A stretch of 39,604 nucleotides of DNA from Candidatus Cloacimonetes bacterium HGW-Cloacimonetes-1. Lineage in GTDB: Bacteria > Cloacimonadota > Cloacimonadia > Cloacimonadales > Cloacimonadaceae. The notes below the pieces were generated by a model. That model did not search any database, was not told where the DNA came from, and worked only from the letters and a program-made list of their open reading frames with translations. A program made the position numbers and the translations under genes. Positions 38,631-39,604 of this stretch are shown here, piece by piece (the stretch's first letter is position 1; every line of letters starts with the position of its first letter). Location of the stretch: positions 1 through 39,604 of the forward strand of contig PHBQ01000021.1 in NCBI GenBank assembly GCA_002841975.1. The letters are read 5' to 3'.

Positions 38631-38750
38631 CTATCTGAAATGCCGTTCCGATGGAACTCATTTCGTTGTGATTATATGCCCTTTGTTCTATCTAAAATGC
38701 CGTTCCTACGAAACTCAAATGTCCCTCCCGCTGGCTGCTATCTAAAATCA
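38631..38750 (+). repeat. Degenerate tandem repeat of ~50-57 bases
   Basis: CTATCTGAAATGCCGTTCC (38631) recurs as CTATCTAAAATGCCGTTCC (38688), both followed by GAAACTCA/GGAACTCA-like sequence, and a truncated CTATCTAAAATCA occurs at 38738. Spacings are 57 and 50 bases. Function is unknown. Confidence 0.6.
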
Positions 38751-38829: not shown

Positions 38830-38856
38830 GACTTCCCGGCGCAGGCCGGGATCCAG
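38830..38856 (-). repeat. REP-like palindromic element 1
   Basis: TCCCGGC (38834-38840) pairs with GCCGGGA (38845-38851) around GCAG. Read on the minus strand the context is CTGGATCCCGGC...GCCGGGAAGT, matching the layout of element 2 with a different stem sequence. Confidence 0.6.
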
Positions 38857-38955
38857 CTCTTTTTAAATGATTATGTAAGAGGCCTTTAAGCTTGATATTT
38901 GTTGCGCATAATTCATCCTGTTATCAGCTTAATTGTACCCCGGCAATTAGTACTT

Positions 38956-38982: not shown

Positions 38983-39050
38983 AGGTAGTCTCGGGCCGGG
39001 TCTGGGATGTGTGAGAACTTTAGATTCTGCTATTCGTTCAGGTCGATACT

Positions 39051-39503
39051 TGTGTCGCCCACGAGGGGCTCTATCGAATAATGAACCATAACGAGGGTCT
39101 ACGTGCCTGCGGCACTACGAACCCGTCGCTATCGGATGTCGCCCACGAGGGGCTAAAACAAGCATATAACTGCGTTCTATCTGCCGTTGGGGTCCCCACC
39201 GGGCAATTAATTGGACTGTGGAGTAAAAATCGGAACTTAGCAGCCGCTCCCTGCGAATCTCAGCAGTCCGTAATGGCACACGCCTCGTGTGCCACAGTCG
39301 AGGCGACTGTGATTACGATGGTGCAGCGCAGCGGAACCTTTTTATTTCGCATACCTTTAAACCTCGGAGAGGTGCAGGCTGTTGACAAATTGTCAGCCCG
39401 GCAGGGCGACATCCGATAGCGACGGGTTCGGAGCATTGCGCCAGCAGTGCGTAGACCCTCGTTAATGTTACAATCCCCAATTGAGCCCTTCACGGGCGAC
39501 ACA
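39051..39503. repeat. Structured element with nested inverted repeats
   Basis: Outer arms: TGTGTCGCCCACGAGGGGCT (39051-39070) against the reverse complement at 39484-39503, 17 of 20 matching. Inner arms: 39089-39144 against 39404-39464, sharing TAACGAGGGTCTACG at one end and a ~26-base block GAACCCGTCGCTATCGGATG... at the other. An 18-base piece of the outer arm recurs directly at 39136-39153. The interior has two adjacent hairpins (39275-39293 and 39293-39311) whose loops are complementary, and palindromes at 39361-39373 and 39383-39395. No transposase and no reading frame recognised. Confidence 0.65.
39275..39311 (+). repeat. Twin hairpins with complementary loops
   Basis: GGCACACG-CCT-CGTGTGCC (39275-39293) is directly followed by CACAGTCG-AGG-CGACTGTG (39293-39311, sharing one base). 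Both stems are perfect. The loops CCT and AGG, with the flanking bases GCCTC and GAGGC, are complementary, so a kissing interaction or an alternative pairing of the two is possible in RNA or single-stranded DNA. Confidence 0.6.
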
Positions 39504-39604
39504 ATCTTGGATTGTCATTCCATGTAATCATGTATGTATGCTGGATTCTGTGCCGTCCTGCCGGACTCAGATCTGAACTGGGGATCCTGATCACGGCACT
39601 TGCG

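Follow-up and report, generated by a model that had tools for sequence, protein, structure and literature searches.

Three-hairpin REP-like repeats, probably linked to subclass-1.2 IS200-like transposases, in a Cloacimonetes genome and beyond

Introduction

The two arms of a large symmetric structure near the end of a Cloacimonetes contig are very likely non-autonomous REP-like units, members of a repeat family tied to transposases of TnpAY1 subclass 1.2 (HuH/Y1 enzymes of the IS200-like kind). Such units probably move as single-stranded DNA through the action of TnpA, and they probably mark a family of small mobile DNA elements that had escaped notice. How REPs and domesticated transposases spread and persist has been a long-standing puzzle. 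Here, a subclass that had been described as having neither insertion sequence (IS) nor REP features is found to be accompanied, in many phyla, by a conserved repeat of complex structure whose copies can number more than a hundred in a genome.

Composition of the symmetric stretch

Within the window, i.e. the whole 39,604-nucleotide stretch of DNA that was analysed, a sequence-only reading had singled out a nested inverted-repeat element of about 450 bp with internal hairpins and no reading frame. The symmetry is real. Inverted arm pairs are present at 39050-39089/39465-39504 (73% complementary), 39084-39103/39450-39469 (90%) and 39115-39144/39404-39433 (97%), as are the internal hairpin at 39103-39115 (GTGCCTGCGGCAC) and its counterpart at about 39433-39450. 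Folded as a single strand, positions 39040-39520 reach -233.6 kcal/mol, compared with -158.4 +/- 6.7 kcal/mol for shuffled sequences (z = -11.25), which is well outside chance. The open reading frames listed across the stretch (112 and 80 amino acids) are unsupported as genes. A search of Rfam at gathering and permissive thresholds gave no family match and one chance hit only, and the window element had no match in phage and plasmid DNA.

The idea of a single element did not hold. A genome-wide copy search (2.78 Mb, 128 contigs), as that reading had proposed, returned 89 blast matches; since each of them covers one module and none the whole, the symmetric object is a pile of repeats, whose arms recur elsewhere independently. 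On each side, the outer arm, the inner arm and the internal hairpin form one unit of about 105 bp, and the two units lie inverted with respect to each other, with their H1 ends inward and 240 bp apart (Table 1). The roughly 240 bp between them consist of the repeat M1, a T-shaped double hairpin and an H-C-H-like repeat, all of which are dispersed in the genome. The 450-bp structure is a mosaic, probably built up as repeats inserted again and again or recombined, rather than a single designed structure. The earlier suggestion of a non-autonomous mobile element can be kept for the arms, which are dispersed, have unrelated flanks and have relatives at a transposase gene; for the 450 bp as a whole, it lacks support.

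Two further explanations for the whole stretch can be weighed at this point. The overall symmetry, with the z-score given above, would suit a single cruciform or a replication or recombination site in which the symmetry itself is functional. This is very improbable, however, as the whole arrangement is found at no other locus, copies match one arm or module only and the middle is made of unrelated dispersed repeats. We give equally little credence to an assembly chimera or contig-end artefact. The structure does lie 100 bp from the contig end (39604), where repeats often break assemblies, but its arms differ from each other (78% identical, with inner hairpins of 13 and 18 nt) and equivalent units are found inside dozens of contigs. 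A match to a known IS end or to an rRNA or attC family had also been named as something that could account for the element. The attC sites of integrons lie in cassette arrays, have conserved RYYYAAC and GTTRRRY core boxes and occur with an integrase. There is no rRNA or Rfam match, and the evidence presented below points to an IS-end-like relation, one that concerns a transposase subclass without described ends.

Table 1. Repeats and hairpins located in the window
Feature	Position	Strand	Basis or remarks
Class-a three-hairpin unit, copy 1	39050-39154	-	R1 39050-39153, 87 bits; R2 39051-39155, E = 0.025
H1 hairpin of copy 1, AGCCC-CTCGT-GGGCGACA	39137-39154	-	Pattern match
Central hairpin C of copy 1, ATAG foot before it	39092-39128	-	Alignment A2 and covariation
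Inner hairpin in C of copy 1	39103-39115		13 nt
H3 hairpin of copy 1, GACAC tail	39053-39070	-	
M1, other dispersed repeat	39156-39243	none	81% identity to locus L231 over 90 nt
Part of M1	39162-39186		Recurs in L185 and L214
M2, T-shaped double-hairpin repeat	39268-39318		Hairpins 39274-39294 and 39293-39311; many copies, 90-98% identity
Third H-C-H-like repeat, class-d related	39319-39389	+	Blast copies 83-89% identical
Hairpin ACCTCGGAGAGGT	39361-39373		Equals H1 of class-d units
Class-a three-hairpin unit, copy 2	39395-39504	+	R1 92 bits; R2 39393-39503, E = 0.001
H1 hairpin of copy 2, AGCCC-GGCA-GGGCGACA	39395-39411	+	
Central hairpin C of copy 2	39420-39461	+	ATAG foot 39416-39419; inner hairpin 39433-39450
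H3 hairpin of copy 2, AGCCC-TTCAC-GGGCGACA, then CAA	39484-39501	+	
C80-type hairpin repeat	38631-38649	-	Pattern, 1 mismatch
C80-type hairpin repeat, second copy	38688-38706	-	Pattern, 0 mismatches

The three-hairpin unit

When 30 copies were aligned together with their flanks, a sharply bordered block of about 105 bp matched from end to end amid unrelated surroundings. The block opens with a hairpin of the form AGCCC-loop-GGGCGACA and closes with a second one of this type, after which comes C. The terminal hairpin by itself occurs 98 times in the genome, and a reversed control pattern 0 times. From 60 stretches of this genome, 63 complete units were collected and sorted into four classes (a, b, c and d), those of the window belonging to class a. 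The order of parts is the same in all classes: H1, which has a short loop, a spacer ending in TAGC, the longer central hairpin C, a linker (about 20-25 nt) and finally H3. The TAG at the foot of the central hairpin is nearly invariant and the base before it varies (G, T, A or C), the units of this genome having ATAG or TTAG. At the unit borders, AA follows the 3' tail, with no strong base preference otherwise. The genes around the units are convergent in 10 cases, tandem in 9, divergent in 7 and of undetermined orientation in 37.

A covariance model built from this genome only (R1) recovers 80 or more units from it. In a MAFFT alignment (A2), RNAalifold gives the same hairpins; paired cells amount to 98.5%, compared with 84.3% after shuffling and no more than 47% after sliding, and the covariation score is 0.406 versus 0.151. 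Since H1 and H3 had served to select the units, the central hairpin alone counts as independent structural evidence. It covaries strongly and holds most of the changes that affect both sides of a stem.

Close inverted pairs of units mostly have their H3 ends inward (19 '+-' versus 2 '-+' pairs, with gaps of up to 60 nt), the polarity seen around tnpA genes and in REPIN-like doublets. The two units of the window have the reverse polarity. At three places (G015, G001 C22 and G021 C25), adjacent units overlap by 20-21 nt, which means that one outer hairpin is common to two units and that (H-C)n-H arrays are formed. Some units are chimeric and join hairpins of different classes (L182, L190, L197 and L200), which suggests that units recombine or that templates are switched between them. 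The exact class-a DNA pattern had no match in 84,980 named genomes; within that collection, class a is therefore confined to this lineage.

Transposases of this genome

The genome has six Y1_Tnp matches, three of which are small proteins encoded on contigs C80, C17 and C74. These are 142-154 amino acids long, carry DHIH or DHVH, WQ and YIxxQxEHH motifs, match both Y1_Tnp and IS200 models, and can be aligned with IS200-type transposases of known structure in both the HuH and the tyrosine region. Subclass 1.2 of TnpAY1 has been characterized by DH[IV]H, WQ and Y..Q..HH motifs and a length of about 148 amino acids (Quentin et al., 2018, PMC6006769, Table 1). Judged by their motifs, the three genes belong to this subclass and have their catalytic motifs intact. 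Their products are 35-52% identical in pairwise comparisons, so they are not recent copies of one another.

Each of the three genes lies between inverted repeats. The C74 gene sits between two inverted class-d units, and the C17 gene is bracketed by inverted class-b units as well as by arrays of these. The C80 gene is enclosed by a hairpin repeat of its own, the third such repeat, in inverted orientation. This repeat has about 30 copies in the genome (32 pattern matches, compared with 1 in the control), and the window contains two. Classes a and c have no tnpA of their own in this draft genome. Locus L181 (G000 C17:7900-11050) has about nine class-b units, partly in tandem arrays of about 99 bp, on both sides of the subclass-1.2 tnpA.

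The genome also has class-2 RAYT genes (C84, C27 and C24; L061-L063), which were considered as partners and are not preferred, no inverted flanking pair having been seen at them. The C84 gene lies near a class-a unit and the C27 gene near an M3-like repeat.

The same architecture at foreign tnpA genes

The comparison was extended to 80 related TnpA proteins, taken from named genomes in many phyla; 76 of the proteins have the Y..Q..HH motif. A grammar parser for the three-hairpin order reached a score of 30 or more in 45% of the flanks, compared with 0.3% when dinucleotides were shuffled and 0.7% for other stretches. Inverted flanks (score 30 or more) were found at 83% of 72 tnpA genes, versus 1.2% of 949 shifted positions at the same loci; of the remaining loci (about 17%), which show none, several are close to contig ends. 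Most flanks adjoin the gene, and in most loci the units lie about 0-26 nt from the tnpA stop codon. The hairpin order is kept, with quite different stem sequences, and in this form the architecture is found beside tnpA genes of subclass 1.2 in over ten phyla.

Two covariance models link the foreign flanks to the units of the window from opposite directions. Model R2 took as input foreign flanks only, its rows having been picked by the grammar parser. Up to E = 5, it returned from the 39.6-kb window only the two class-a units (Table 1). In the other direction, R1 was run on the 80 foreign loci. Among the 89 matches listed, 86 were tallied and 56 of these adjoin tnpA, with a precise polarity: plus in 27 of 30 and minus in 3 of 30 upstream of the gene, and minus in 26 of 26 and plus in 0 downstream of it. 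In another Cloacimonetes genome, UBA5210, the flank of tnpA is very near the R1 model (76 bits), and eight units are found. Among plasmid and phage proteins, TnpA of the subclass-1.2 kind had good coverage on two plasmids only and in no phage.

These placements bear on whether the units are structured RNAs (terminators, mRNA stabilisers or small RNAs) that are under selection in transcripts, their proximity to tnpA being secondary. Strong folding and covariation would look alike in RNA, and REPs elsewhere act in transcripts (PMC3733652). However, the units have no Rfam match, and a fixed inverted placement around one type of transposase across phyla, together with high dispersal, would be unexpected for a housekeeping RNA. 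We therefore regard this explanation as improbable and the transposase-linked repeat as the better account.

Dispersal and co-occurrence with tnpA

The units are dispersed well beyond the transposase genes. R1 finds tens of units in several genomes of the same family, and R2 finds dispersed units in all but one of 32 genomes from other phyla that carry tnpA (31 of 32), with up to 132 units scored. The E-values of these models are rough. In a set of 32 relatives chosen by the presence of tnpA, units occur in 11 of 13 genomes with a subclass-1.2 tnpA and in 3 of 19 without it (p = 0.0002). When all 51 relatives that were scored are taken together, the association is weaker yet present (Fisher p about 0.001-0.007). 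Five genomes (G002, G006, G015, G029 and G054) have many units and no detected subclass-1.2 tnpA: either the gene was lost, the assembly is incomplete or the units are mobilised by another TnpA. Two genomes (G017 and G057) have tnpA and few or no recognised units.

Copy numbers also matter for another explanation, that the units are true IS ends, with tnpA and its two inverted units forming an autonomous element and the solo units being deletion relics (MITEs). The compact succession of unit, tnpA and inverted unit, with the short distances from the stop codon given above, would agree with this, as would the gene-less doublets of the same polarity. On the other side, there are only 1-4 tnpA genes per genome but tens of units, the three tnpA genes of this genome are too divergent to be recent copies, and subclass 1.2 has been reported as low-copy, divergent and without IS properties (PMC6006769). 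We consider true IS ends a possible but rather unlikely explanation, and prefer that of REP-like units.

Comparison with known systems

A close parallel is with the REP, REPIN and REPtron systems of the class-2 TnpA-REP/RAYT transposases. In both cases, short hairpin repeats are dispersed in the genome, inverted copies flank a HuH/Y1 tnpA, there is one repeat family per tnpA, inverted doublets occur and a TAG-type foot precedes the central hairpin. The differences lie in size (a single hairpin of 20-40 bp versus a three-hairpin unit of about 90-110 bp here), in the transposase (class 2 with Y...NP versus subclass 1.2 with Y..Q..HH), in the foot (GT[AG]G, here relaxed to NTAG) and in the additional direct-repeat hairpins H1 and H3.

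With IS200/IS605 elements (subclass 1.1), the units share subterminal hairpins and a small TnpA of a related type, in which HuH and Y..Q motifs are present, and the left- and right-end hairpins of those elements have equal polarity, as do H1 and H3 within a unit. However, IS200/IS605 elements have no terminal inverted repeats and one hairpin per end, whereas long inverted flanks are the rule here. They also occur with nearly identical multiple tnpA copies, whereas here tnpA genes are few and divergent and most units are gene-less.

TIRtrons (TIRYT; Di Nocera 2013) resemble the present loci in that tyrosine transposase genes have long terminal inverted repeats, some of which are self-complementary and dispersed. 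Their transposases belong to subclasses 2.1, 2.2 and 2.5 (PMC6006769) rather than 1.2, and their reported motif, GGGGWSAS, differs from the consensus found here. Some hairpins here have CGTC- or TGTC-like tags by the stem (GGGCGTCA, TGTCGCCC), as in the CGTC-tagged REPs, whose stems of 8-9 bp have AT in pairs one and two and which carry a CCA tail and are not associated with a transposase (Di Nocera 2013); these stem, tail and transposase features set the units apart from them.

Mosaic clusters are also familiar from E. coli, where BIMEs combine REP hairpins with other short motifs. They resemble the structure in the window in this clustering and differ from it in the repeats and in the transposase subclass.

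Proposed mechanism and significance

Homology to the TnpA of IS200/IS605 and to TnpA-REP (PMC6006769; PMC8266576) is the basis for the mechanism that we propose. TnpA would bind the folded hairpins on single-stranded DNA, e.g. on the lagging-strand template, and its tyrosine would cut near the conserved tails (the tail of H1 being GACA-like). The enzyme would then transfer the unit, or a copy of it, to another intergenic location. Insertions beside or into existing copies would lead to mosaics such as the 450-bp structure of the window. By analogy with the end hairpins of IS200, the common type and polarity of H1 and H3 may explain both the unit borders and the arrays with shared hairpins.

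In the published classification, subclass 1.2 has the entry 'no' in the REP column and is described as lacking IS properties, with low and divergent copies (PMC6006769). Units of the kind described here flank its genes and are dispersed, and it is the description that needs revising, not the membership. On balance, we lean toward viewing subclass 1.2 as the enzyme of a widespread system of three-hairpin single-stranded-DNA mobile repeats, one that spans more than ten phyla and stands apart from the known REP and IS200 systems.

A search of the open-access literature by sequence and by term gave no prior description of such units with subclass 1.2. The three-hairpin unit and its partner subclass appear to be new; REP-type repeats with a Y1 transposase were already known. 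The units provide an independent system for testing how REPs are disseminated, a covariance model with which to find them, and an explanation for many hitherto unexplained intergenic repeats in the genomes of Bacteroidota, Planctomycetota, Acidobacteriota, Verrucomicrobiota and related groups.

Other repeats in and around the window

Several smaller repeats were noted alongside the units. The sequence CTTGGATTGTCATTCCATGTAATCATG follows H3 in the window (39505-39604) and in L178, L200, L218, L202 and L212, loci that are otherwise unrelated, and may be a further module downstream of H3. The T-shaped double hairpin M2 has near-identical copies (up to 98%) and is found in tandem at about 88 bp in the relative G039. 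The two C80-type repeats of the window, at 38631-38660 and 38688-38717 on the minus strand, read GTTCC-loop-GGAAC followed by GGCATTTTAGATAG. A palindrome at 38830-38859 (GACTTCCCGGCgcagGCCGGGATCCAG) is like the CGTC-tagged REPs and has a CCA-like tail, a type that has been reported without a transposase.
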